NCBI GenBank assembly: GCA_001599295.1
Contig: BCGN01000006.1
Location: 868,001-932,000 of the forward strand
Direction of reading: 5' to 3'
From: Sporopachydermia quercuum
Lineage: Eukaryota > Ascomycota > Sporopachydermiomycetes > Sporopachydermiales > Sporopachydermiaceae
Length of the DNA stretch: 64,000 nucleotides
Each line of letters opens with the position of its first letter. Within the stretch, counting starts at the first letter, position 1. The position numbers and the translations under genes were made by a program. The notes beneath the pieces were generated by a model. The model was not told the origin of the DNA and searched no databases. It worked only from the letters and a program-made list of their open reading frames with translations. Shown here in pieces: positions 14,610-59,827 of the stretch.

Positions 14610-16478
14610 CTAGTTTTTACCTTCAACACTGATTTCATAAACAACTCTTTTATCCCATTTCAAAGAGAAGTCAATTTCAGGGGTCATGGTTTTAACTGTG
14701 TCAATTTCGGATGAAGATCTAACGCTGGAATCAAGAACACTATTCCTCATATCAGGTAAAGTGCCAGGAAGGGTTTTGCCTGCAACAGATCTGGGAACAG
14801 TCTTATCAGTGGAACGATTCATGGTAGTATCAGCAGTTTCGGATTTGACATTAGGAGTTGTGCTGTTGATGATTGTGGCCGTACTGTTTTCTGTACTATA
14901 GTCATCGCTACTTCTGGATTCGTCATTATTCTCCTCATTGATTTTCTTTGCATTAGAATTCAATTTGCTCACTTTAATTGCCGGGCCATTATGATGCGAA
15001 CTGCTCCCCTTCCTTCGTTTGCGCTTTTTACTCAATTCTTGAGTGGAAGCTTGAACTTTACTAATTTCACCCAATGACAAACCCCCATAGTATTTCTCTA
15101 AGATCTCATCAACATCCAATGATAGTTTCCTAGCTTCTGCCAGAGTCCTAGCAAACGATGGATTTTTATTTATTAGTACAGATTGAACAGACTCTTCGTC
15201 ATCAAGTGAATTGTTCTCTTCAGTTTTAGCTTCAGTTTCTTGTGACACTTTTTCGCGAACCATCTCAAACAAACTTTCAAAATCGTTTATGTCTCTAGTT
15301 TCTGGTATAATTGATTGAGACACGGAATCAGAAGTGAGTATTTCAGATGTAGTTTTAGATGAAGGGGTTTGGGCGGATGTTTCATTAGAAGTCTTAAGAG
15401 GTGTGGACACAAGTGAGTCTACTTTCTGTGCCGGTGCTGGGGAAGATGCAGCTACAACTGAGTTCTCCTCCATTATCGGCACACCACATTCCCGTGCCGC
15501 AGCAGTGTGTGACATGATTTCCTTACCATGTGCGATACGGCAATGATTGATAAATCCTTGAGGAGAAGAAAAGTTCGATCGTTGACAGTTGGGATCTGGA
15601 CAAATGAGTTTAACTAAAGTACCATCAGAGCGACGAACAAGACACTGTGCACCTGAACCTGGCATTGAATATGCTCTTGGGGATGGTTTCAAACAACAGG
15701 TTTGAGAGCGAGTGCGCATCAATGCATAATGAGAATGAGAATATGGGTCAAGAGAAGTTTGAGAACCAGCTGAAGCAGGAAATTTATAAAGATGAGCAGA
15801 TGAGGAGTTTGTTGAAGGTGACAAAGAGCTAGATGCAGATGATGTAGATGATGCAGATGATAATGATGGGTTGCTGGAAGAACTGGAAGGTACGGAACTT
15901 GGGATTGAACAACGTGAATAAGGATTCAATACTTGAAGTTGTGAAGATATGTACGCTGGAGATAGTAGAAAAGCGTACTTGACAGCAAACTCAGAAGGCT
16001 CTTGTGATGGTGGATCAATATCCTGAATTAAACTTGTTGGTGATGGGGATCGATTTGATTCAGAAACCCCTTCGGATTCTATTGAGTTAAGTTTGCTTCT
16101 CTCATCTGAATTGCTTTTTAATAATGATTTGACTGTATACCACTGCCTTATCTTAACCATCATGATTTCAACTTTTGCTATTTGTTGCTCAATTGATTGG
16201 ACTTCACGATGTTTGAGAAGAATTTCCAAATCAAATTGTTCCTTTATGATTTTTGCTACACGTTTCTTCTTCTCGGGACTCAAATCAGTTGATTTTTTCT
16301 CTAATTCTAAACTTCTTGATCTTTCTTCAAAATCACTGGCTGTTGGTGAATCAATTGATTTAGGTGTAGTTGTTGCAATTGGAAGCAACAAACCTATATC
16401 TTCATGATTTACTGTTACATCCTGCCCCTTAAAGCCATAATCTTCGCCTGGTGATGAAACTGGCGAGACTTGATTCAT
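14610..16478 (-). CDS. AHC1: Ada histone acetyltransferase complex component Ahc1-like
   Basis: Encodes 622 residues from the ATG at 16478 (MNQVSPVSSPGEDYGFKG). The frame extends upstream to a TTG at 16520, not a normal start. Ahc1 is a structural subunit specific to the yeast ADA (Gcn5-Ada2-Ada3) histone acetyltransferase complex. Diagnostic is the zinc-binding block around residues 275-335: CLVRRSDGTLVKLICPDPNC, then SPQGFINHCRIAHGKE and SHTAAARECGVPI, shared by fungal Ahc1 proteins. A helical basic segment (EKKKRVAKIIKEQFDLEILL, about 80-115) precedes it. A long Ser-rich tract near 205-240 and a disordered C-terminal half flank it. It neighbours DDL1 as YOR023C does in S. cerevisiae, which strengthens the call. 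No defects seen. Confidence 0.88.
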   Translation of the reverse strand: MNQVSPVSSPGEDYGFKGQDVTVNHEDIGLLLPIATTTPKSIDSPTASDFEERSRSLELEKKSTDLSPEKKKRVAKIIKEQFDLEILLKHREVQSIEQQIAKVEIMMVKIRQWYTVKSLLKSNSDERSKLNSIESEGVSESNRSPSPTSLIQDIDPPSQEPSEFAVKYAFLLSPAYISSQLQVLNPYSRCSIPSSVPSSSSSNPSLSSASSTSSASSSLSPSTNSSSAHLYKFPASAGSQTSLDPYSHSHYALMRTRSQTCCLKPSPRAYSMPGSGAQCLVRRSDGTLVKLICPDPNCQRSNFSSPQGFINHCRIAHGKEIMSHTAAARECGVPIMEENSVVAASSPAPAQKVDSLVSTPLKTSNETSAQTPSSKTTSEILTSDSVSQSIIPETRDINDFESLFEMVREKVSQETEAKTEENNSLDDEESVQSVLINKNPSFARTLAEARKLSLDVDEILEKYYGGLSLGEISKVQASTQELSKKRKRRKGSSSHHNGPAIKVSKLNSNAKKINEENNDESRSSDDYSTENSTATIINSTTPNVKSETADTTMNRSTDKTVPRSVAGKTLPGTLPDMRNSVLDSSVRSSSEIDTVKTMTPEIDFSLKWDKRVVYEISVEGKN

Positions 16479-19400
16479 TTTCCTTTTATCCAAGATAAAC
16501 CCGTGAAACAATCTATACAAAAAATATATAGATGTAATGATGTGGATTGAAGTTTCTCTTAACTTCCAATTGACTCCTGGATCTTAATCCCAAGCCAATA
16601 TAATATCAAATAAATGATACAGTCAAATAAATTAATTCCGTAGCAACTATTCAATCCTACTTGCGTTGGTTTGATATCGACTTCTCCTTAATCAAACTTA
16701 GCAGTTCTCAGAATGCATCAATAGATCCGAACCCTCAGTCATGGATTTAAACAACACAATAAAGTGCAGCAAATAACCAGAATCAAATTTGATGATACGT
16801 TAATATATAACTATTATATTTATTATCTCTTTAATAAATACAATTGAACATTAATTGTAGATATAAATAACAAATACAAATAAAAACAGATTCCCTTTTT
16901 CTACCTTTCTTTTTCTTTGCCTTCAGGTTTTGATACAAGTGAAAATACCCTATCTGCGGCTATCGATTTGAATCGGCACAAATGGCAATTTGAACGGAGT
17001 GATGGTAAACTTAAGTAAGCGCCAACACTAGAGATGTATGTGATTTACCTAATTGTCTGTTTCAATTTAGAATAAAAAGTAAACCTTTGATACAAATCGA
17101 AAAAAAAAAATAAACAATGTAAGGAGGCTAAAAATCAAAATGAAGAATAATATATCGATTGATGCTCTTAATATTATAAGAAAGAAAAGGGTGACGTGCG
17201 GATTCTTATGAGGAATTGAATTTTGATTCTATGGAAAATTTCACTGTCTAGCTAAGTGCTCGAAATAAGGTTTGCCAGCTGAGCTTAAACCTTATTTCTT
17301 AACACTTGTTTTGGAATAATTACAAGTTGCAAGTGCATCAGATCCCTCGTTGGAGTAACCAAACACTAGGGGGGATCTTCGCAAAGAGTCAATTGTACTG
17401 TAGATAAGATAACAATTTGGTAGATTTAAATACAAGAAACTGTTGTCTTAATTAGTAGAATGAGAATATTTTCATTATAATAGTTAGAATAAATCAATTG
17501 ATAGATTTTCTTTTGAAAACCTGTAGGGAAAATCGAAAATACAGGANATCTAATTTCGGAGTACACTGCATTGAAACGAAATGTATGTGTATGTGTAATG
17601 ATGTGAAAAATAAACTCACCAGATGATGCATTGGTGGGTTTTACTGTTTAAAGACGAATTAGGGAGAGAACCGTGAAGAAGAATTATAACCTCAAGCGAT
17701 TGTGCAGAGCATCTACAACGTGAATGGAATGAAAAATTATATCATAGACTAATAGGGGAATTAGATGTAGTAATAAAATTAAGCAGATAAAAGATAAAAC
17801 GAAATGAAATGAAATAATTAATTTTCATGGCGATGTTAAAAGGTTGAAATGAGAAGGTTATTGTTACTTTGATTTGTCAACACTTCACACTGAAAATTGG
17901 GGTAAAGGACAGGCAGTGTTGAGATGTTGTTCGAAGAATTTGCAGGCAATAGAGGTAAACAGAGAATAAAGGTTAAGCTCCTACTGTATGGNTTTTTCTC
18001 TTTCTTAATTTATTCATCACATTTTCATTCTTTTTCCTATATACTGATTTATTAATTGATGAATCTACTGCTAGAAGATCGTACAACTATGAATTGATAT
18101 ATCGCTCATTTCCACTTCCAACCATACATCGTAGCATGACAAATTCTAAACTGTTGATATAATTGCCAAAATATGTGCTTTGTAACCTTGATCCATACAG
18201 CATTTAATCTAAATATAAACTTCTAATTTTAAGATAATCTCGATCACCTAGAACAACTCAGAATTAGCTGTCACCAACTTCATTGCCAAACCTATTTTTG
18301 ACATCTCATTCAACGATCCCCTACAGCGAGGGCTCGCCTTGGTCACAGCTCTCCATTTCCACTGTCTAACTTTGGACGCCATACCATACCATACATAATA
18401 CCTACGTTTCCACATTCTTGGTCGCCCTATTTCTTCCTAATTCCAGTTTTACTTTATTCAGTTCGATTCAACTGTTTTTTTACCTTCTCACATACGGCTT
18501 CCGAATCTTTCTTTTCGAACAAACTTTAAATCCAAGATAGGCTGAAAGCTGATTTCGACAGCCCTTCAGATGAGGTTGATAGCAGTGTTACTTAGAGGCT
18601 TGGCATGACAAAAATATAATTAATGTCACATCTATGTTAGTATTAACACTATACCTGACTTTCGAATAAAAGCAAGAAAAGCAGGAACCTCAATTTGACA
18701 GGCATGGGTGATATTTGAAAAGGATTGGAAGTGAGTAGACGAANTTTAATCTACACAAAGAATAGATTTTTATTGTTATAAATGAGAAGTCGTAGTTCGC
18801 AGTTTATTTACGAAATGTGATTTTAATAAATGAAAAAATTCAGTAAAAGGCATATAGGTAGGTTGCACCTATATTAATAACTGTAGGAAACAATATCATT
18901 CTATTCTGTAGCAAACTAGCAATTGAAGCAGCAATTGAGGTAGGGTATATGGTATTGATCAATTAAAATATAAGAGGATCACATAATCTATAGATTTCTG
19001 ACCAAAAAATATGCATAGAATTATGGCAAACGTTAATTTAACCGTTTTGACAAATGGAATCTCAACACGAAAGAATTAAATAACTGAAACGGAATGGAAT
19101 GGACTTGAAATATGGATGTTGAAGACAGATTGATTGATCAACACGTGAAAATAAGAAAATGGAAATGTGAAGTGCGACTGAATCACTGAGGACGGAAGGT
19201 GCGAGAAGTTAAGACTACAAACCGATTGAATAATAAGATGTGAGATCGAATTTCTGGAGTGATAATACAAATGTAGAAGTCTGCAGAATTGTGAAGTGCA
19301 TTTGTTAGGCGAGTTCTTTAGTTCCTTGATGCAAAGTTATGCGAAACTATTAATCTTTGTCTGTTCTATAATTACTGAGAAAAGTCTTACTCCTTCTTAT

Positions 19401-44256: not shown

Positions 44257-45272
44257 TTAGAACCTCCTTGATAAAATAATGTCCTAAATTAGTGTAGGAG
44301 AAAGTCATAGAAAGAAAAGAACAGAGAAAGAAACAAGCATCTATCTTTCAAATGTTGAAATGTTCGGGTCATCCTTATAAGTGGTAGAGCAAACAAGAAA
44401 TGCTTTAGTTTAAACTACCATCAACACAATCGATAGTACTAAAGCCAAAAATCAATAAGATCTGTTTACAGGGTAGAAGCAATACCAATTATATGATAAA
44501 AGGTGTACATTAGGTGTCCTTTTTGTTGATGATATAGACCGACAGTCAAAATTCAATCCTGAAATGAATCGATAGATTCATTAAATTGAGGCTCGGTAAA
44601 ACCGGTACCGAAATCAGGAACAAAGCTTATTTTTTTCACTTAGGACTGAACCAAATAAAGACAAGTGTTATCTAGTGAGTTAATAGCGAAAAGCTAAGAA
44701 GAACTAGATATACTCAACTCCAGCGATAACATTTCTAATTCTAACCAAGTCATTAGTATACATATATTAACTTGTATCGAATGATCATATTCATGTGTCC
44801 CTTATTCCCTTATTTCGGACATATTCTTTATCATCTCCGGTAATGACTCCACATCTCATCCTGAAAATCCTCAAAACTCGTAATGGTGATGTTCTTCAAT
44901 GCCTCAAATTACTTCTAAGGCGTAAGATGCATACCGCCAATTTTCCATAATAAAAAAATAAATTACTTCCGTGCTCTTACAACTATTCTAATGAGCAGGC
45001 AATTAGCTATTGTAAGTGTAGTTTCGGAAGCCACAAAACATCCATCCGAAGTATCAGTATTTAATTCGGAACCCACAAACGTCAAGGTTTATTCTGAACC
45101 AGGAAATTTCCCGGATTCATGGGATTTGAGTACCCAACTAATGTGATCAAGAATCAAATTCAGTTCCGATTGTTTACTATACTCATTTCCTATTTAGTCC
45201 CGTTTTTTACCCGATTCAGTTAACTTTTGGAATCAAATTCAGTAATCACTCAGTAATATAGTGTTTTGTGTA
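44257..45272. other. intergenic region CDC23-PRP8
   Basis: About 1 kb with the PRP8 promoter. Two TTCGGAA(G/C)CCACAAA-like direct repeats (about 45026-45039 and 45067-45079) stand out. An ATG followed by GTAAGT at 44991-45017 looks like a short leader exon, but no acceptor gives a matching phase. Confidence 0.4.
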
Positions 45273-48200
45273 ATGCCGAAAAACCCCCCACCTCCACCGC
45301 CTCCAGGGCGGTCCAATAAATCTGTGCCGCCCCCACCAGGTTCAAATCGGCTTGGTGCTCGACCCCCACCACCTCCCGGCGCTAGATCTTTCCCAGCTGG
45401 TGGCCCACCTCCAGTTAAGCCACCAGGACCTTCAAAAGGTCCAAAAGAAGCTCCAGAGGTACGCAAACGGAAACTAGCCGAGAAGAAACGCAAATGGCTC
45501 CTTCATCAGAAATCCCGGTTCGGAACCACAAAAAAGGTCAATCCATCCCGAATTCACCCCCAGAAAGCCGATATGCCACCCGAACACCTCCGGAAAATCA
45601 TCCGAGATCACGCCGACATGTCGGCTCGGAAATTTGCTGCCGATAAGCGCTCATATCTCGGAGCCCTGAAATACATGCCCCACGCAGTACTAAAATTACT
45701 AGAAAATATGCCCCAACCGTGGGAAAGTATGCGGGAAGTTAGAGTTTTGTACCATATTTCGGGAGCCATTACGTTTGTAAATGAAATTCCCCGAGTAATT
45801 CCTCCCGTTTATACCGCCCAATGGGCTACAATATGGTTAGCAATGCGGCGAGAGAAGCGGGACCGTCGGCATTTCAAACGGATGAGGTTCCCNCCGTTTG
45901 ATGATGAGGAACCTCCAATTTTGTGGTCGGATAANATTCAGGATGTGGAATTACCGGAAGCGGTAGAGTTAGAGCTCAACGAGGAAGAAGACTTGTCTAT
46001 TTTGGACTGGTTTTATGATCATCAGCCGCTTAGAGATGATCCCACGCACATTTTAGGCAGTAGTTACCGGAAATGGAAGCTGGAGTTGCCAGAAATGGCG
46101 AATCTGTACCGATTGGCTACTCCGCTTTTAACCGAGGGCAATAATCCCAACGCGGGGTATTTATTTGACAAAAAGGCCTTTTTCACGGCTAAGGCACTCA
46201 ATTTGGCAATCCCAGGCGGACCGAAATTCGAACCCTTGTACAAAGACGTCAATTCCGAAGACGAGGATTTTACTGAGTTCAATTCAATCGATCGGATCAT
46301 CTTCCGAATCCCCATGCGGACCGAGTACAGGGTCGCTTTCCCCTTTCTGTACAATTCATTGGCTCGATCAGTAGAAATTGCTGCTTACCATCATCCGGAT
46401 AACCTATTTATCCGAACAGACGACCCGGATCTCCCTGCTTTCCATTTCGACCCGCAGTTTAACCCGATTTCAGGTCGGAAAGTGCTCACTTCGGGCCCAG
46501 AAGCCGAGCTGACGGAAACAGCTGAGGAATTCACTCTTCCTGACGGATTCACCCCACTTTTATCCGACCAAAATTTAACTCCCGAGCATACAAATTCAGC
46601 CATTTCCTTGCTGCATGCCCCACATCCGTTTAACCGAAGAACGGGCAACACATGCCGAGCTCAAGACGTACCCCTCATTAAGAACTTCTATCTTGAGCCT
46701 TGCCCGGGCGGAAACCCCGCCAAAGTCCGCGTTTCATACCAAAAACTCCTCAAAACGTACGTTTTAACTGCCCTTCATAGTCAGGATCCCGCCAACTACC
46801 CCGCCTCCAAAACAAACCTTATTCGGTCCCTTCGGCAAACAAAGTTCTTCCAGCAAACATCGATTGACTGGCTAGAAGCCGGCTTACAAATATGCCGCCA
46901 AGGGTTCAACATGTTGAACTTGCTAATTCACCGAAAAGGGTTAGTTTATCTCCATTTGGACTTCAACTTTAATCTTAAACCGACTAAAACCTTAACTACA
47001 AAAGAGCGGAAACGATCCCGTTTCGGAAACGCATTTCATCTTATGCGGGAGATTCTCAAGACTATTAAGCTTTTAGTAGACGCGCAAGTTCAATACCGAT
47101 TAGGAAATATAGACGCGTTCCAACTGGCAGACGGAATTTACTATATTTTTAACCACTTAGGACAATTGACTGGCATTTACCGGTACAAATATAAAGTTAT
47201 GCATCAAATCCGAGCCTGTAAAGATCTGAAACATGTGATTTATTACAAATTCAACCGAGGCATCGGCAAAGGTCCGGGCTGCGGCTTTTGGCAACCGGCT
47301 TGGCGCATTTGGATCTTTTTTCTCCGGGGTATTCTTCCCCTTTTGGAAAGATGGCTCGGCAACTTATTGGCCCGGCAATTCGAAGGCCGCCATTCAAATA
47401 CCGTGGCGAAAACTATCACAAAACAAAGAGTCGACTCCTATTACGATTTAGAGCTAAGAGCCGCGGTTCTTAACGACATCTTAGACTCAATACCCGAGGG
47501 TATTCGTCAGAATAAGGCTAAAACGATTCTCCAGCATTTATCCGAAGCTTGGCGGTGTTGGAAAGCCAATATTCCTTGGAAAGTTCCGGGATTACCCGCN
47601 GCTATAGAGAAAATCATCCTTCGGTACGTTAAGGCTAAAGCCGACGGGTGGATTTCTGTGGCGCATTATAACCGAGATCGGATTAAGCGCGGAGCCACAG
47701 TGGACAAAACCGTGGCTAAGAAGAATTTGGGCCGGTTGACGCGGCTGTGGCTGAAAGCGGAACAAGAGCGCCAGCAAGGTTTCCTTAAAGATGGGCCATT
47801 TGTGACTTCGGAAGAGGCCGTGGGCATTTATTCCCAAATGGTGCAATGGCTTGAATCTCGGAACTTTAATCCTATCCCGTTCCCTCCTCTTAGTTACAAG
47901 CACGACACGAAATTACTTGTTTTGGCCTTGGAGGCGCTTAAAGAGTCGTACTCGGCAAAAGCTCGGCTTAATTCCTCGGAACGGGAAGAATTAGCGCTTA
48001 TCGAAGCCGCCTACGACAACCCGCATGAATGTTTAGCGCGGGTGAAACGGTTTTTGCTCACCCAGCGGGTATTCAAAGAGGTTTCTGTGGATATGATGGA
48101 CCATTATTCGCATATTAACCCGGTTTATTCTGTTGATCCGTTAGAAAAGATCACAGACGCGTATTTAGATCAGTATTTGTGGTATGAAGGGGAGAAGCGG

Positions 48201-51200
48201 AGTTTATTTCCCAATTGGGTCAAGCCTTCCGATGGCGAAATTGCCCCACTTTTGGTGTACAAATGGTGCCAGAGCATTAACGGGCTGAATAACGTTTGGA
48301 GCAATGAAGGAGGGGCATGTGGGGTAATGGTACAAACCGAATTAAGCAAATTAACCGAGAAAATCGACTTTACTCTCCTAAATAGGCTTTTGCGGCTAAT
48401 CATGGACCCTAATTTAGCAGATTACATTACTGCTAAAAACAATATTGCCCTCTCGTACAAGGACATGAACCATATTAACCAATACGGATTGATCCGAGGT
48501 TTACAGTTTGCCGGATTTGTATGGCAATTTTACGGTTTATCCGTCGATTTGATGCTTTTGGGACCTATCCGAGCCGCAGAAATAGCCGGGTTACCGGATG
48601 ATCCTAATGGATTTGCCGAGTTTAAATCCCTGGAAACCGAAACTGGACATCCAATTCGGTTATATACCCGGTATTTGGATAAAATTCACTTGTTTTTAAA
48701 GTTCGATTCGGAAGAAGAATGCCGAGAGCTTATTCAACGGTACCTTGCCGAAAATCCCGACCCGAACGGGTCCAATATCCTTGGCTATAACAACAAGAAG
48801 TGCTGGCCTCGGGATTCGCGGATGCGGCTTATCCGAAATGACGTGAATCTCGGAAGAGCCGTGTTTTGGCAGCTGAAAAACCGGTTGCCGAGGTCGGTTA
48901 CCTCACTGGAATGGGAAGATTCGCTCGTTTCTGTGTATTCAGCCGAAAATCCTAACTTAATTTTCTCCATGCTCGGTTTCGAAGTCCGGATTTTGCCCAG
49001 AAGCCGAGAATTANCCGCTTCCTCGGCTAAAGAAGGCGTTTGGGACTTAATACACCCAGAAACTAAAGCTAAAACAGCATCGGCTTATCTTAAAGTGTCA
49101 CAAACAGAAATCGATCAATTCAGCAACCGCATCCGGCAAATCTTAATGTCGTCCGGGTCCACCACGTTTACAAAAATCGCTAATAAGTGGAATACGGCAC
49201 TTATTGCTCTGCTTACGTATTACCGAGAAGCCGCTATTTCGACCGAAACCTTATTGGACGCGCTTGTTAAAGCCGAAACCAAAATTCAAACCCGAGTGAA
49301 AATGGGTCTGAATTCTAAAATGCCATCCCGGTTTCCCCCGGCCGTGTTCTACACGCCTAAAGAACTCGGAGGCCTTGGCATGCTTTCCGCGTCTCATGTG
49401 CTAATTCCGGCTTCTGATCTCCGATGGTCCAAGCAAACCGACACCGGAATCACCCATTTCCGATCGGGAATGTCTCATGAGGATGATAAAGTTATCCCCA
49501 CTTTGTTCCGGTACATCCCGAGCTGGGAATCTGAATTCCGAGACTCCCAGAGAGTTTGGGCCGAATATGCCATAAAAAGGGCCGAAGCGGCCCAGGAAAA
49601 CCGAAGATTGGCTTTAGAGGATCTTGAAGATTCCTGGGACCGAGGAATTCCTCGGATTAATACTTTATTCCAGAAAGATCGCCATACCCTCGCTTATGAT
49701 AAAGGCCACCGGATCCGAACCGTGCTGAAACAGTATACATTGCCGCGGGTAAATCCGTTCTGGTGGACCTCGGCTCGGCATGATGGAAAACTGTGGAACC
49801 TTAATTCATACCGAACGGACATTATTCAAGCTTTAGGCGGAATTGAAACCATTTTAGAACACACTTTATTTAAAGGTACCGGATTCGGGTCATGGGAAGG
49901 CCTATTTTGGGAAAAAGCTTCCGGGTTTGAGGACAGTTTACAGTTTAAAAAGCTTACAAACGCTCAACGATCGGGACTGTCCCAAATCCCAAATAGAAGA
50001 TTCACCCTGTGGTGGTCTCCTACAATTAACCGAGCTAACGTTTATATCGGCTTTTTGGTCCAATTGGACCTAACGGGTATTTTCCTGCACGGAAAGATTC
50101 CTACGCTCAAAATCTCCCTAATTCAGATATTCCGGGCCCATTTATGGCAAAAGATCCATGAAAACGTGGTTTACGATTTGTGTCAAGTGCTGGATGGGGA
50201 AATTGAAGCGCTAGAAGTGGAAAGCGTAGAGAAAGCAGCAATTCATCCGAGAAAGTCGTATAAAATGAATTCTTCCTGTGCCGATATAGTGATTTTGCCA
50301 CGGTTCCGCTGGCCCGTGAACGGCAAACCTAGTTTATTGTATGACGAGGAAACCGGAAACGATGGGTCCGTGGCGATTTCGGAAAAGATGTGGATAGACG
50401 TTCAGCTAAGGTACGGAGATTATGACTCCCACGACATTTCTCGGTACATCCGAGCCAAATTCCTCGACTATACATCTGACCCAAGCTCAATATATCCGAG
50501 CGGAACCGGAGTTATGGTTGGAATAGATTTAGCGTATAACATCCATGATGCATTCGGTAATTGGATCCCCGGTTTAAAACCGTTGATGAGAGAGGCAATG
50601 AAAAGTATAATGCGGAACAATCCGTCTTTGTACGTTCTTCGGGAGCGGATCCGCAAAGGACTTCAATTGTATCAATCTCAACCCCAGGAGGCGTTCCTAA
50701 ATGCCCAAAACTATCAGGAATTGTTCAATTCGGACATTCAACTGTTCATTGATGACACAAATGTTTACCGAGTTACAGTACACAAAACTTATGAAGGAAA
50801 TTTGACCACAAAACCTATAAACGGAGCCATATTCATATTTAATCCCAAATCGGGTCAATTGTTCCTCAAAATAGTCCACAGTTCCGTCTGGGCGGGCCAA
50901 AAACGGCTGGGCCAGCTGGCAAAATGGAAAACCGCGGAAGAAGTTGCCGCATTAGTCCGGTCTCTGCCTAAAGAGGAACAACCTAAACAGCTGATTGTTA
51001 CCCGAAAGGGAATGCTAGACCCTCTCGAAGTTCACATGCTTGACTTCCCCAATATAAGCATCAGACCCTCAGAATTACAGTTGCCGTTTCAAGCGGCAAT
51101 GAAACTGGAAAAGATCCAGGAGCTAATTTTAACCGCCACGGAACCTAAAATGGTGCTCTTGAACCTGTTCGACGACTGGCTAAATACAGTTTCTGCTTAT

Positions 51201-52469
51201 ACTGCATTTTCCCGGCTTCTATTGATCCTCCGGGCGCTGCATGTGAATGCGGAGAAGGCTAAGTTGATCCTTCGGCCCGAGAAGTCGGTAATCACAGAAG
51301 AAAATCACATGTGGCCGTCATTCTCGGATGAGGAATGGATGCGGGTGGAAGTTTCCCTTCGGGACATGATTTTATACGATTACGGCAAGAAAAACAATGT
51401 GAATGTGGCGTCATTAACCCAGAATGAGATCCGGGATTTGATTTTAGGCCAGGAGATCCGAGCTCCATCAGCTAAACGGCAGGAACTAGCCGAGGAAGCT
51501 GGAAACGGCACCGGAAACGGCACCGGAAACGGAAATATATCTGACGTGGGACAAATCTCGGCTATTAAGACTAAAGGAGTCAACGTACACGGAGAAGAAG
51601 TGATTACGTATACAACATCTAACTATGGACAGCAAACATTTGCATCTAAAAACGAATGGAGAAACCGAGCGATCTCGGCAACAAGTTTACATCTAAGGGC
51701 TAAGAATATATTTGTTCCGAAAGATTCCGAAATTGACCCGGAGACNTTTACGTACATCTTGCCTAAAAACATCCTTAAGCGGTTTATACAGATTGGAGAC
51801 CTTCGGGTCCAAATAGCCGCGTTTATATTTGGGGTTTCCGTTAAAGAGAATCCTCGGATTAAGGAGATCCGAGCCGCGGTCTTAGTACCTCAATTGGGAA
51901 ATAACGTTTCGGTAAAATTCCCTAATTTAACCCCCGAAGATGACTCATTACTTGCCGGATTAGAACCATTAGGCTTGATGCACACGGATGGGGTAGAAAA
52001 TGGGGAAATATTGCCTAATGAGGTAATCATGATGGGTAAACTGAATTCCCAAAACGACAAAGTATACACAAATAACTCGCTTGTATTACCCGTTGCTTTC
52101 ACCCCCGGTTCCATTACCATTTCAGGCTATTCAGTTACGGAATCTGGACTAGAATGGGGCAAAAACAACCAAAATACCCCACTTATCAATCCTGAAACAG
52201 GAACTATTCCCGGTTTTGATCCCGAATTCGGTAAACCCTGCCAAATCTTATTATCCGATAGAATTAAAGGCTTTTTCTTAGTCCCCAAAACCGGTATTTG
52301 GAACTACTCATTTTTAGCCGCGGCTTGGACACCCAATATAGAATACAGTCTGAAATTAGACACTCCATTGCCTTTCTATCACCAATTGCATAGACCTACG
52401 CATTTTATTGCGTTTAATAACTTGGAAGATAATGAAGCTGAAGTTGAAAAGGAGAATTATTTCGCTTGA
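45273..52469 (+). CDS. PRP8: core spliceosome factor Prp8
   Basis: Encodes 2398 residues (2413 in S. cerevisiae) from ATG 45273; an upstream GTG at 45261 is ignored. Prp8 is the U5 snRNP scaffold that cradles the spliceosome active site. After a Pro/Gly-rich N-terminus (1-65) come PRO8NT ([20 protein letters not shown]), PROCN ([20 protein letters not shown]), and the reverse-transcriptase-like core with LYKD-type segment [15 protein letters not shown]. Then follow the linker and endonuclease-like domains ([40 protein letters not shown]), the RNase H-like domain ([40 protein letters not shown]) and the C-terminal Jab1/MPN domain. Codon use is clearly richer in G+C, with many CGG arginines, than in neighbouring genes. 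CTG encodes Leu in RLWLKAEQ. Five ambiguous bases; no frame damage. Confidence 0.99.
51501..51536 (+). repeat. 12-nt tandem repeat in PRP8 linker
   Basis: Two exact copies of GGAAACGGCACC and a third partial copy encode GNGTGNGTGNGN. It falls in the flexible linker between the RNase H-like and Jab1/MPN domains, where length varies among species. Confidence 0.85.
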
Positions 52470-54048
52470 TTCAGCGAATAAGAGAGGTTATTTTTAGTTA
52501 TGCGGTAGATGTACAGGGAACCTCGGAATAGAAAATACGGGATTGAAAAGAATGTCGTAAAAGAACGGAATGGAGCGGAACTTAACAGTCAGATCTGAGA
52601 TTGTATACAGATTGGTACTTCGGGTTATTTTGATACAGCACAGAAAGTATCGGGATTGTGGGATCATTTAGAAACTTAATATAGTAAATGGAATAATCTA
52701 AGATTTGTAATTGCCTTCGTATCATAGTTTTATTGTAATATTTGCGTGAACTAGCATAACGTATGCAACTTGGTGAATGCTAGTATTGAAATTTGGGACA
52801 TGGTAGGAGTATATGCATGAATAATGCATTGAGATGTATTATTTGGAAGTTGTGCATACTATTGATTAGGACTGCATATAGACTACATTTGCAACTCGGC
52901 ATATAACCACATGACCCATGTTTGTTGTTAATGAAAGCAACCAGTTTTTAAATGTTTTCACAGTTTTGAATAAAAATCTGAACTCAATAGCGGAGTTTTC
53001 ACCCCAGTTTTATAGTGAAAATAACAAGTATTCTACTTCTACTAATCACCGATAGTTGCACCCATAAAAATCATTAAAGTTTGAACACCTTGCATAATTA
53101 TACAGTAAAATCTCAACTTTATTCATGCTCCTTTCAAATGTCATGTGCTGTGTTCTTTATACATACTATATTGTATGATAGAAGTAAAAACTTAACTACG
53201 GTGAAAAGGTGTGTTTTAAGAAGGGATAATGATCTTGCTTTTTATTTATGTCCTTTCTTGTTAATAAAACAGTGTAACATACAACGAACTTCGATGACGT
53301 GCTGAATAAAGTTTGATGATTCAATGCAATAAATATGCAGATCAAACCTTTTTCAAACCTTTTAGAATTGCCGGTTCTAAAATGTTAAGTATGCTAATTC
53401 ATTGAAATGACAGCCTGAACAGATTGTTATCGTATAATAATTCTGTTTGTTCTTAGTGAGGTTTTGATTACTGTTAACATTGAAATGAACGATGAAGTAA
53501 CTGCTAAAATCTACTTATACGAATAACATAAACAGTGTACGTATATTTCTTTCCAGACATTCCTATTTAAAGTTACAGATTTTTGCGTAGATCTGTCCTG
53601 AGATGCATAGTTTTATATCACTTAACTGATTATTTACTATGTACTGGTACTTGCTCAAATAACTCATTGAATGACGAGAAATCAGTCGACTGTTTAGTAG
53701 TAGAAGTAACTATACTGTACACATAATTTGTATTATTTTTTAGTTATTTCAACCTTTATTTAATGATTTTTAAGGCTCACTATTTAATTTTCATTTCCTG
53801 CACATTTTCTGCACTGACTCCAACTTAAATATTTATTTACATGTATAGCTCATACGGCTTTTTACCATTTTTTTCTTACTTTTTTTTGTACTTTTCTTGT
53901 CCTATTCAATTTCTTTTAATCCCGTAAAAAGAGAAACAGCAGAAGTAAATGGAAAATAATAACCGAGATTTATTCAACCCGGGGAAGAACACCGGTTCTT
54001 GTAGTGTTCATCACTTGACTCGACTATCCGTTTTGGTAGAATATTAGC
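52470..54048. other. intergenic region PRP8 to RED1-like gene
   Basis: About 1.6 kb. It contains a perfect 8-bp inverted repeat, TTTTAGAA/TTCTAAAA (53360-53367, 53375-53382), preceded by a CAAACCTTTT duplication, and a T-rich tract near 53860-53920 before the next gene. No supported gene. Confidence 0.4.
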
Positions 54049-57000
54049 ATGGATGATTCCACTGAACTACGTTCTGTAGTATCAGCATCAACAGACTTCA
54101 TTGCAAGCGGAACATCCGCTTCGGCTTCCGAGATGGTTCCAGAAACAATCTCGGAAACATCTTTGGCTATTCCCAGCTCCACTATTGGTTCAAGCAACTC
54201 CGAACTGCCTAAAAGTACCGAAAATTCTCCTTTATGTATGTCCTTTCTTTTCAGTCTCAACAGTTTCACCACCTATCCTCACGGTGTGTATTGCCATTTG
54301 CCATTATTAGCATTATGTCTACTGCTATTTTACTAACAAAAGAACCGACAGGCAATGAATTATTTGATGCCATAAAAGATATAAGACGCCTGGGGCTCAG
54401 CTTTTATGATATAATCAAAGGATCGCAAGTGAATGGTGAGTTTCTACGCAAATGTTATCTGATGTTGGATTTGGCAGTGCCCATAGATATCGGAAACAAT
54501 AACGGAAGCAATATCGGCGATAATAGTAGAAATAATATCGGAGCGGAAGATCCATCAGCCTTAAGAACTCCCGATGTGGCCGCAGCCCAGAGAATTGATA
54601 AAATGTATGCTAGTAACTACTCAACGCCGGTTCCTCCCAATGGTAATTTTACGCCACAGCTGACAACTTCCGACTTTAAACTCCTAGCCATGGTTTCCCC
54701 TTCCGCTCCAATCTCAATAACAACCTCAACCACAAATTTAGCCGCAACCGCGGACCAAAATCCTCGGAAACGGAATAAATTCGGCTCCAATAACAATTGG
54801 CTCAAAGACTTAATTATTCCTATCAATGATGACGAATTTAACGACGATATCAACATTGATTCTTCTATCAGTAGCTCAATCAAACATGTAACCTCCATTA
54901 CAACTGTTTCAGCTCCTTCAACTGCTTCATCAACAACTTCATCAGCACCGTCTAAAGTCATACCTAATAAACGTTCATACACAGATGGCGCTACTTATAG
55001 TAATACCGGAACGCCAAGTATTAGTATTAACGGCTCATCTACGAACTTATCAAGGCAATCATTGCGCCAAAAGGAAGAGGAAATTAAAAGGATGAGCGAA
55101 CGGATTGCCGCGCTGCTGGCCAATAAGAAACGGCTGCAGGAAGCGATCAAGGAGAAGCGGAACGGGAGGAACAGCGGGGGGAATGGTGGGGAAGAGTTTA
55201 CTGAGGAAGAGGGGGAAAGTGGGGACAGCGGGGAGAACACGGGGAAGATGTCGGTTGAACCCGAGAATAAAACTGGAGAAGATAATGAGGCAGAAGAGGA
55301 TAACNGAAATGTTAATGATGATTTCAATAGCGCTAGTAGTATTAGCAGTAGTAGTAGCAATAACGGGAATAATACTAAAGAATCAACTCCAGTTTCAAAT
55401 ACCAACCCCATCATTGCAGCACACTCTCCCCCTAGTTCTTCAAACCCTAATTTACGGCTTTACCGCTCTAAGTTATCAAAACTTCAAAACCAGCAGTCTT
55501 CATTACGGAAACTATTCACAGCAAGCAACGACAATATTACCGGGACCAAACGGAAAATATTGGAAGCGAAATCAATACTGGAAATGATAGAAACAAATAT
55601 TAACAAACAGGAGACTATACTACAAGAGCTTAATGAGAAAAGACGGAAAACTTTACAAGAGTTGAAAGTGTATAATGACACGTTGAACGTTCAAGAGGAG
55701 TTTTTAATGAGCAAAGCAGAATTTANTCAGGATATTGAAAGAGAAATAGATGATCTTCGGAAGGAAATTCTGGTGTTGGAGGAGAAAGAGGAGAATGTGG
55801 GAAAGATGAAAATAGAAGAAGACATAACAGAAATTGAAAGTAGAGTTGGAGGGCAAACGACCAGAGATATTACGGAGANGGTACCCCAGAGTACGGGAAC
55901 TATATTAAGTGAGGATGGTATGTAATGGGTTTGTAATTTGATTCGGTGAACATGAAATTCAGGAACTGAAATGAATATTTAGCAATTGGTCTAAATTAAC
56001 GGAAGAAATAATGGAAGAAATAGNGAAAACGATAGCGGAANCGGAATCGGATATGCAATGTATTTTCAGAGTACAATGAATGTCTTACATATTATAACAA
56101 TAGTAACTGCCTGCATATTAAATCATTCATTCATCATTTGTCTGCTTTAATGGAAGATTATGTGATTTTGCTGCTTAGATGCATAGAAGGTGGGAGGTAA
56201 AGTGTTGAGGATGTCAAGAAAGAGCCAAGAATCAGAGCACAAGACAAAGATAAAGACAAAAACGTATGAATTGCAGCTACAAGTTGTTGTTTATGCTGTT
56301 TGCTTTATGATTTGTCTCCCACAGCTGTTGATTTCCTTTTCCTTTAGCACAAACTGTACATTTTTAGCTTGATAACGGCGTACTTCATGCTATCCGCAGT
56401 GTTTAGAATTTAATCTAAGATGCTAGAGCAAGCATAGAAGTTTTGGTGAAACTGAAAGAATAAGAAAACGCGTGTGTAACAATTCTGAAACTGCAGGATA
56501 GTTTATGCTATGATTTTCTTGTTTCTGCTGTATTTTTCGTTGCTATTTTCATTTTTTCCGGGATTGTTCTCGCTGCTTCCGTTGATGTTGACTACGGAAG
56601 TTTTACTCATAAACTTGATGGTTTACTAACTGAAAATATGCAATAGTTAATGAAAATATTAAAAACGATTCAATTGAATTTAATACTGTGAAAAGTGATG
56701 AGATAGTGGATGATAGTTCGATTCCAGCAACAACGGCGAGAGAGCAGCGAACTGTTCGTTATTTTAATGGGGAGAGCAATGATAATAGCAGTACTAATAA
56801 AAGCAAGGTCACCAATAGTAATAATGAAAATGCGAATAATATTAATGNAAAGAATAAGAGCAATATTGCCATGAGAAACGTTGTTACTAATGAAATGTCT
56901 CAAGAGGAACTAACTGATGAAGACGAGAATGAAGTTGACTCAACTGATTTAATTAAAACTGATAATAGTAATAGTGCTAATGATAAGAGTATTAGTATTG

Positions 57001-57960
57001 TTGGCAATAATGATAGTAGTAGCAATATTTTAAAAGATGGTGTTAACGCTGATGACAATAAATTCAATTCAGTTGAGAAGGTAAGTGAATAATTTCTTGT
57101 ATTTTGAGGGACTATGGAAAGCAGATAAAATAAGGATGATATTCCGGAAACGATACCGAATACTGGAACTAGTAGCAGGATATCTAGGAATAATGAAGCA
57201 AACACTAGAGATAATGCAGTAACTACTGGAAATAGTATATCGGAAACTACGAGAAACAATGTCCTACAGTTGTTTATATTTATACACTTGAAACAAACTT
57301 CAAAATGATAGTTTCAACTGCTCTTATAAAGTACTTGCAAATAGTGCAAATGTTTAGTTGGTATGGTGGTAAGACTACATTAAGCGGGCTTCAAATACAA
57401 GAATGATGCAATATGATAGGCAGGCACCCACAGTTATTCAGCTTATCCACAATTCCTTTATCATTTTTTCTTATATTGTTCTTTATTTTCCACTAACAAA
57501 TCTAAAGCCACAAGTTTCTCTTTTCACTCCTTATATTTCTCCATTGAAATGCTTTAAATCCTTCAGATTCAGCCCATTTTTTGGTTACGTCAGTAAATCA
57601 GGACTCAGATCATCAACTTGGAGCAATACTATCAACCCTGATGGTATTGTATGCAGTGACGAACTATTTGATGGAAAATGCCAAAACACTTCTTGTATTT
57701 ATCAGCATTTGTCCGACTGTATAATGGATGGAACTGAGATACTAGTAGATTTAGCTAAGTGTACGGTTGGAAAGGATAGTAATGAATATAAATCAAATCT
57801 GAGTAAAGAATTGGAGCAAGCAGGTGCTGAGTGTGATGATTTTGATTTACTAAGTCGAATAATATTGGATTTTCGCAGAAAGCATATTGAAGATAATCAG
57901 TACTTAGACTGGAAAAAGTTTGGGTCTTTATGGAAGAAAGAAAAGAAGTTTGAGAGATAA
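54049..57960 (+). CDS. Red1/ZFC3H1-like nuclear RNA decay factor (multi-exon)
   Basis: Model: exons 54049-54235, 54352-55917, 56647-57080, 57135-57218 (least certain) and 57508-57960; about 907 residues. Junction signals: GTATGT...TACTAAC...CAG; GTATGT (55918)...TACTAAC...TAG (56646); GTAAGT (57081)...AAG; last acceptor AAG after CACTAAC. All phases agree. The last exon carries the family signature: FTPYISPLKCFKSFRF, SNTINPDG and a zinc finger spaced C-x8-C-x4-C-x3-H (CSDELFDGKCQNTSCIYQH). Human ZFC3H1 has KPYRSPLLMFKSYRFSP and C-x7-C-x4-C-x3-H here. Earlier exons are acidic, Asn-rich and coiled coil (KRMSERIAALLANKKRLQEA; LSKLQNQQSSLRKLF). Red1 (S. pombe) and ZFC3H1 (human) bridge the helicase Mtr4/Mtl1 to nuclear RNA degradation; S. 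cerevisiae lacks an obvious counterpart. Joining of the front exons to the zinc-finger exon is inferred. Confidence 0.68.
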
Positions 57961-59827
57961 TTAAGCTTAAAACGTAAAGATACATAGTGAGTAGTGTTCC
58001 ATATGGCTAAATTTGTACTAAATCGGATTTATCGATCATTATAAATGGAAAAGCGCAGTAATTAGTAAAATGTTTTGGNTAGGTCTAATGGTAATAAGGT
58101 TCTTTATACCTGTGTAAAGTTTGTTCACTTGCATACCACTCTTCACATATAGAATTTTTGCCTGCCTAATTAGGATTTATGGCATTAACTTTAAAATTCA
58201 ACATTCCACTTAAGTTTCACTAGTGGTAACTTTAATGTTTCTTCACACTCGCTCTTGCTTTTCATACTTATTATGAACCATATAAAGGTTAACCATTAGT
58301 TTACTATTAATGAGATGACAGTTCACTGCTTATAATCATCTTTCTTGACCTTTTATCGGTAATCCTTCTACCAATTGCAGTCACCATAGTTGGCTGACCT
58401 TTGATGTGACTAATATTGCCAATCGTAACACGTTACAACAAATAAGCTTAACTTAAGCTGTATATATTTGATTGGCTCATTTTTCTGGCTGTTACTATTA
58501 AAATACCAATTAATATTACCAATATTGTTCATCTCGATTATTTTCAAACTTGCCGTTCATTCAAATTCAACTACTAATCCATTTATTATTGCCAATGCCC
58601 ATATTCCCATTTTCCTTATTCCTCGTTTGCTTCCAGACAGAAGAAAAATAAGTCAGGCCCTTTGTTATTCAGTTTTATTTCTTCATAATTGAGAATTTCT
58701 CTTGATAACCAAATAGTAAATCAACCAGTGAAACTATTGATCTATTTATCTAAACAATAACCTTCTATCTTTCTAATTGCTGGAAATGATAGAAGAAACT
58801 TACTGTAACACTAAAAGGAGTAAATTTTCTGCCCGCAAACTTAACGACTATAGTCAACTCAATATTCATATGCTGGGGAATCATTCCATATTACTTACTG
58901 ATTATCACACCAGCTGAGATATCTTATATCGTTTTATAGAAGAAACATGAGACCGTTAATGCCGTAGACTAATCGACAAAGAAAGAACTAGATTACAATT
59001 TATACTCTACACTCAACCGGTATATATATCATTAGATCATTTCTTTTCTATTTATTCATACATTAAATAAAAACAAATAGTTGATAGATTATCTACTCTT
59101 AACAATCTGTGACAATCATTTCCTAAATAATATATGCTGTAGCAAGTCAAGCATATTAGCTGTTGCGATCAAAAAACAACACTGTACAAAATATGTCACA
59201 TAAACATTAATATCATAAATATAGTTTATATACAATGAAGAGTAATTTTTTTCTGTAGATTAGAGATTTCATTCTGATTCTCATAGAAAGCAACCTTCAG
59301 TTGACGTAATTGATATACACATTAACACATCAAATACTGAATTCAATTCGCATAGCATAACATGATATAGAACTGTCACTAATATATTTGCTCACATGAG
59401 GTAGTGCAATACTAGTTGAATAGTCCAAAATGCTCTATACCAACATTCATTTCACCTAAATTTATCTCATCAGTAACTTGATTGGTCATACTTCATCGTG
59501 ATCATAATTTGACAAAGTAGTTTTACTCTTCTTTCNCGTATACTTATCCTTTTTCTCTCTTCTTTCGTTTCTATTGTCAAAAGCCCCGATTCTACAAAAG
59601 TCGTCGTAGTAGCAATGCCAGCTTTGCCTAACTCTTAAATTCTCTATAATNAAAATACTAACTGATTTACAATAAAGATTACTGATAATCTGCTGTTGAG
59701 TTATCTCAGTAGAAATGCGAATTAATGCTTTGAAAGGACCTGCAGATGATGTTGACTAGTCAACCGATCATCCAGGCAGCTTTCTTTTTCATCCTGTTCA
59801 TTTTGTTCACATTGTTCAATCTTATTA
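57961..59827. other. intergenic region downstream of RED1-like gene
   Basis: About 1.9 kb between convergent 3' ends. AT-rich; the small hydrophobic ORF at 58468-58692 has no start context or homologue I recognise. No RNA gene or repeat recognised. Confidence 0.4.

Follow-up and report, generated by a model that had tools for sequence, protein, structure and literature searches.

In fission yeast and humans, proteins of the Red1/ZFC3H1 family hand unwanted nuclear RNA over to the exosome. A 64-kb stretch of DNA (hereafter the window) in contig 6 of a 16.4 Mb, 12-contig yeast genome carries on its + strand a gene which, judged by its sequence, is a real new member of this family. The predicted product is likely to be a scaffold that links the single Mtr4 of the genome and several poly(A)-side partners to the exosome. 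The gene probably encodes the scaffold of an MTREC/PAXT-like pathway lacking ARS2, a pathway that we infer to be active. Mtr4 binding, assembly of the complex and its RNA targets are predicted likewise, on the model of relatives for which a crystal structure and genetic data are available.

The terminal exon of the gene encodes, in this order on the + strand, PYISPL, FKSFRFSP, SNTINPD and a C-x8-C-x4-C-x3-H finger. An earlier sequence-only reading of the window had claimed this linear arrangement as a family feature, and all four motifs are present in the claimed order. In a phmmer search against PDB chains, the terminal frame matched the Red1 chains 6yfv_B and 6ygu_B (E 1.2e-9 and 1.7e-9); no other chain fell below E 0.2, the next-best match being a cytosine deaminase (E 0.23). 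The best Red1 alignment is 75 residues long, and the finger accounts for the smaller part of it. Structure 6YFV represents a Chaetomium Red1 peptide crystallised with Mtr4 (PMC8187409), and 16 positions named in that paper as Mtr4 contacts or zinc ligands were scored. Identity at these positions is 13/16 versus 16/58 at the other aligned positions (Fisher p 1.6e-4). The kept residues are Y1017, S1019, P1020, L1021, F1024, S1043, T1045, I1050, L1061 and the zinc ligands; all four finger ligands align with C1057, C1066, C1070 and H1074 of the Chaetomium thermophilum protein (ctRed1). Without the zinc ligands, nine of the 12 contact positions are identical (p 0.003). Two of the four U-turn residues described in PMC8187409 are kept (F1027, F1033); with this group added, identity is 15/20 versus 14/54 elsewhere (p 1.8e-4). 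The homology of the finger exon to the Red1/ZFC3H1 family, proposed in the sequence-only reading, is upheld by the Red1 match in the PDB and by the conservation of contact and zinc residues.

The positions altered in interaction mutants of Schizosaccharomyces pombe Red1 (F586, K587 and I612; PMC8187409) read F, K and I here, at a constant offset that equates I612 with I1050. In the same work, the C. thermophilum peptide lost its binding when I1050 was exchanged for arginine but not with F1024R alone or S1043R/T1045R alone, and full-length Mtl1 was still bound by the S. pombe I612R mutant (PMC8187409). A large protein collection offered 224 candidate homologues for residues 760–910 and 23 for the terminal frame, none of which passed. 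Eukaryotic relatives are presumably hardly present in this collection, so the empty search is no evidence of uniqueness. An AlphaFold2 model of the terminal frame alone had a pLDDT of 35, too low to be informative.

A 59-bp stretch elsewhere in contig 6 (1147052–1147117) is 83% identical to the finger exon (pairwise blastn E 2e-10). It encodes WSNTINPYGIACSDEL, after which the homology ends, and is apparently what remains of a second, now dead copy. Eight of its 19 codons are changed, five of them silently, which hints that this copy was under selection before its decay. Another second-copy match, at contig 1, 2033820 (E 0.015), was dismissed as chance, the surrounding frame having the look of a protein kinase.

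The terminal exon is the last of a predicted five-exon chain (Table 1), which joins into 910 residues with matching phases and no internal stop. GT...AG borders are found in all four introns, and a CTAAC box lies 14–17 nt upstream of the AG in three of them. The five-exon chain of the sequence-only reading stands as a prediction. A codon-usage score, for which 11 further frames from the window served as training set and in which exon 2 was scored in three pieces, ranked the predicted frame first in 5/5 exons, and all four introns fell below zero in every frame. The null windows of this score were drawn from the same stretches that served as background, and the highest intergenic window (0.33) exceeds every exon. 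Splice-like signals are no commoner than in shuffled sequence (branch/acceptor pattern, 27 in the window versus 29.6; GTATGT, 33 versus 28.1); it is therefore the reading frames, the phases and the placement of the exons that support the chain, and not the density of signals. An extra exon at 56007–56059 in intron 2, the sole candidate tried, broke the frame in the join used and was rejected.

Partners of such a scaffold could be provided by several genes of the same genome. Mtr4 is represented by one strong match to the arch profile (PF13234, 222.5 bits). This arch scores 269 bits to Saccharomyces cerevisiae Mtr4/Dob1 and also matches Mtr4 chains of the PDB, including those of Chaetomium at ranks 15 and 16 of 16. 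A second arch match (33.3 bits), over the cut-off, reads as Ski2. A survey of RRM domains gave 103 matches, for which 30 loci were scanned by pattern and 20 further regions mainly by their longest frame (one region gave none). A PABPN1-like pattern was seen in one of 37 loci scanned, a Pab2/PABPN1-type gene whose product has one RRM and a tail of glycine and arginine. The four PDB chains that this product matches best score 122–128 bits and the next RRM 57.7; one of the four is named Poly(A)-binding protein 1, one embryonic poly(A)-binding protein 2-B and two poly(A)-binding protein 2. Judging by its alignment, we read the first of these as PABPN1-type.

A further gene encodes PWI (38.7 bits) and RRM (25.5 bits) domains in one frame and is a probable counterpart of RBM26/27 (Rmn1). 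A multi-CCCH protein (zf-CCCH, 44.8 bits) has two Pfam stretches and two fingers by pattern; five fingers are visible by eye, the first cut by the frame start and one containing an unread base. This protein probably belongs to the Red5/ZC3H3 type. The correspondence of Red5 with ZC3H3 and of Rmn1 with RBM26/27 is described in PMC7049725. A CBP80 gene is present, as is one YTH protein (contig 6, 1085241–1086035), which at E<=1e-8 matches five PDB chains, of CPSF30-YTH and of YTHDC2; Mmi1 was not among the matches listed. The YTH protein also carries a YTH1-like RRM (PF25701, 35.1 bits, cut-off 35), and its YTH domain spans residues 501–765, thus including a long insert.

Several observations weigh against these assignments, at the level of the finger, of the gene model or of the pathway. 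Within the arch-binding segment three contact residues are replaced (M1056V, F1075L, I1078C), and the U-turn residues V1037 and Y1046 are changed. The zf-C3H1 profile PF10650 scores 15.7 bits (E 0.013), below its cut-off of 20.9; a genome-wide search with this profile gave nothing at E<=0.001, and 0/14 control genomes matched. The profile comparison suggested in the sequence-only reading was thus equivocal, as the score is sub-threshold but PF10650 is the sole Pfam family for the terminal frame at E<=1. If an unrelated CCCH finger resembled Red1 by accident, the low profile score would be accounted for, but this is extremely improbable, given that the Red1 alignment (E 1.2e-9) lies for the most part beyond the finger and that Pfam offers no other family at E<=1.

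Outside the terminal exon no Red1 match was found in the frames of exons 1–3 searched against Pfam, where nothing came near a cut-off, or in exon 2 searched against the PDB, where no match fell below E 0.1. Intron 3 is the weakest junction, having no CTAAC branch box in its 54 nt. The terminal exon has a weak codon score (–0.04 per codon, slightly below the null 95th percentile of –0.02), so its coding nature rests mainly on homology. The finger exon could instead be a short Red1-type gene of its own, with exons 1–4 belonging to a neighbour; the unmatched upstream frames and the poor intron 3 suit this arrangement, and an ATG at 57403 opens a frame of 185 amino acids. Such a division is nevertheless decidedly unlikely. 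The stretch 57403–57514 scores at best –0.18 per codon, inside the intergenic range, and ends in a branch box and AG, while the phases of the five exons all fit. Moreover, a long, mostly disordered part upstream of the finger is the known layout of Red1 (PMC9402713).

Two candidate elements were noted in this upstream part. The stretch 54354–54497, at the start of exon 2, was modelled by single-sequence AlphaFold2 as three helices (mean pLDDT 64.7), which recall the helix-turn-helix (HTH) domain of Red1 described in PMC9402713, the Iss10 site of the S. pombe protein. No structural or sequence match of this segment was significant, and Red1-Iss10 was not among the structural matches listed. An 85-residue stretch free of proline and glycine could form a coiled coil, the element that serves dimerisation in this family, but a crude heptad score of the whole protein was reached by 36 of 200 shuffles and so does not rise above that of shuffled composition.

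As to the pathway, the ARS2-docking motif [ED][ED]GE[ILV] is absent from the 910-residue model and from the unspliced forward frames of 53001–58000, though an unrecognised exon could still hold one; the closest sequence is EEGES at residue 348. ARS2 itself was not found with PF04959 or PF12066 (no matches with either), and no ERH exceeded the cut-off. Both searches were made exon by exon and without a eukaryotic positive control, so these absences are weak negatives. An ERH candidate of 18.6 bits (cut-off 25) was rejected; it lies in a frame of 83 amino acids, the end of which overlaps an opposite-strand frame of 353, and two of 14 prokaryotic controls gave equally weak matches. The PDB search of the PWI+RRM protein named other RRM proteins and no RBM26/27; the Rmn1 and Red5 labels, which are based on domains, are probable. 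The partner search proposed in the sequence-only reading accordingly had a divided outcome: Mtr4, Pab2-type, CBP80 and YTH genes are present, and the PWI+RRM and multi-CCCH proteins are recognised by domain, but ARS2 and ERH were not found. The claim that an MTREC/PAXT-like pathway persists in this lineage is likewise favoured by the gene inventory and weakened by the lack of ARS2, ERH and the ARS2 motif.

The same gaps would be expected of a relic of the Red1 family that binds Mtr4 and no longer serves an MTREC/PAXT-type decay pathway, particularly as Nrd1- and Nab3-type genes (see below) could bear the surveillance load. We regard such a relic as unlikely, since the contact residues are conserved above background, the frame is open over 910 amino acids, and the Pab2-type, PWI+RRM and multi-CCCH genes are still present. 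The absence of ARS2 from the genome and that of the docking motif from the scaffold seem to form a consistent pair, each member being weak alone. Because this motif is absent and several partners are only probable, the system is not classified as a full MTREC/PAXT complex.

In the proposed ARS2-less pathway, the C-terminal segment of the Red1-type protein would run from the stalk to the KOW of the Mtr4 arch and could be held there by the zinc finger. The scaffold would tie the Pab2/PABPN1-type, Rmn1-like and Red5-like proteins to the nuclear exosome, which could then degrade nuclear RNA that is polyadenylated or unspliced. Compared with the complexes of fission yeast and humans, this pathway would lack the cap-side link through ARS2.

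The significance of the gene depends on the kind of yeast that carries it. RPB2 (976 residues) scores 1767 bits to 5x4z, 1684 to the S. cerevisiae chain and 1655 to the S. pombe chain (3h0g); 5x4z is the Komagataella subunit, and chains at about 1277–1287 bits are presumably animal. A Nrd1-type protein with CID and RRM (contig 9, 228725) scores 216 bits to Nrd1 versus 150 to Seb1 in its RRM; its CID favours Seb1 over Nrd1 (54 versus 46 bits). A Nab3-like gene (contig 6, 1266802) has a frame of 807 residues, and the PDB chains that it matches best are three of Nab3 (54.8 bits; next non-Nab3 chain 38.4). Prp8 scores higher to S. pombe (3675 bits) than to S. cerevisiae (3536), and its top two PDB chains are 9r8v and 9l5r. 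On balance the organism is likely to fall within Saccharomycotina, but best hits do not amount to a tree, so the placement is likely rather than proven. The description of the organism as a budding yeast agrees with RPB2, the Nrd1 RRM and the Nab3-like gene but not with Prp8 or the CID.

The alternative is a Taphrinomycotina yeast, where a Red1 gene would be expected; this concerns the interest of the finding and is compatible with a Red1-family scaffold. A window GC content of 36% and a compact genome, both resembling fission yeast, point in this direction together with the Prp8 and CID scores. Against them stand the order of the RPB2 scores, the preference of the RRM for Nrd1, the Nab3-like gene and the presence of one strong Mtr4 in place of an Mtr4/Mtl1 pair, and a Taphrinomycotina origin is very unlikely.

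Positions of the predicted features are given in Table 1. The gene lies between a Prp8 frame (45261–52469) and an opposite-strand sugar transporter; both neighbours were named by reading, and the identity of Prp8 is borne out by PDB matches. Across all six frames, the window contains three instances of the peptide [VI]PETI (1084, 54136 and 57141, + strand), always in low-complexity stretches of predicted proteins, namely of a HECT-type protein and of exons 1 and 4 of the Red1-type gene. A frame of 636 amino acids on the – strand (14613–16520) has no Pfam match at E<=0.001 and shows a C2H2-like motif by eye. The 64 kb contain 38 isolated N letters, none adjacent to another and several within clear genes such as Prp8, which are perhaps ambiguous or heterozygous bases.

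Table 1. Predicted features of the Red1-type gene, in positions of the window
Feature	Position	Strand	Evidence or remarks
Exon 1	54049..54235	+	start codon; low-complexity N-terminus; no ED/EGEI motif; 0.24 per codon in predicted frame
Intron 1 (116 nt)	54236..54351	+	GTATGT ... ACTAAC-14-AG
Exon 2	54352..55917	+	three-helix segment, long helical stretch
Possible three-helix (HTH-like) segment, NELFDAIKDIRRLGLSFYDIIKG...	54354..54473	+	single-sequence AlphaFold2
Candidate coiled coil	55545..55799	+	85 residues, charged, Pro/Gly-free
Intron 2 (729 nt)	55918..56646	+	GTATGT ... ACTAAC-16-AG; a further small exon could be hidden inside
Exon 3	56647..57080	+	low complexity
Intron 3 (54 nt)	57081..57134	+	GTAAGT ... 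AAG; no CTAAC box
Exon 4 (100 nt)	57135..57234	+	required for phase into terminal exon
Intron 4 (280 nt)	57235..57514	+	GTATAT ... ACTAAC-17-AG
Terminal exon	57515..57960	+	putative Mtr4-binding segment, zinc finger, C-terminal tail
Predicted Mtr4 arch-binding segment, homologous to ctRed1 1017–1078	57532..57720	+	PDB sequence match, contact residues
C-x8-C-x4-C-x3-H zinc finger (zf-C3H1 type)	57652..57708	+	Pfam 15.7 bits, E 0.013; ligand alignment

The whole MTREC complex was called missing from budding yeast by Zhou et al. 2015 (PMC4455066), and MTREC is called absent from S. cerevisiae in PMC9922296. PMC4024641 and PMC7397231 yielded no information about a budding-yeast Red1. Among the openly licensed papers listed, judged by titles and the beginnings of abstracts, none was seen to report a Saccharomycotina Red1, and prior notice is possible. 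Since Red1 and Nrd1/Nab3 types occur together in this genome, the two are not mutually exclusive. The MTREC pathway is described as missing from baker's yeast, and in this genome its loss may have been caught at an intermediate step. Such a stage, which we propose only tentatively and consider rather doubtful, would comprise a Red1-Mtr4-poly(A) module (Red1, Pab2, Rmn1 and Red5 types) without ARS2, beside Nrd1-Nab3. In that case ERH, as well as ARS2 and its docking motif, would have disappeared as the cap-side half earlier than the poly(A)-side half, and Nrd1-Nab3 would not, at its origin, have been a simple substitute for MTREC. With Red1 and the Nrd1/Nab3 types in one genome, the order of replacement becomes testable, and a pathway that by nature apparently does without ARS2 could help to tell cap-linked decay apart from poly(A)-linked decay.

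Compared with the Red1 systems of C. thermophilum and S. pombe, the predicted protein shares the arch-binding segment, the C-terminal C-x8-C-x4-C-x3-H finger and a long low-complexity part upstream, and Mtr4 and Pab2-type genes coexist with it. In contrast to those systems, no ED/EGEI motif is seen in the model and ARS2 was not found; the HTH and the coiled coil correspond to candidate stretches only. The product has 910 amino acids versus 712 in S. pombe Red1, and S. pombe possesses both Mtr4 and Mtl1 (PMC4455066), whereas one strong Mtr4 is present here. Human ZFC3H1 is the family counterpart of Red1, a link taken from published work rather than from direct comparison. It has 1989 residues, an internal MTR4-binding domain at about 1140–1292 and an ED/EGEI motif (PMC9402713); the MTR4-binding segment predicted here is C-terminal instead, and the PABPN1 partner type of human PAXT is present. 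With the Nrd1-Nab3/TRAMP system of S. cerevisiae the genome shares Nrd1- and Nab3-like genes, but where S. cerevisiae is described as lacking Red1, Red5, Rmn1 and Ars2 (PMC4455066), a Red1-type gene here stands beside the Nrd1 and Nab3 types.

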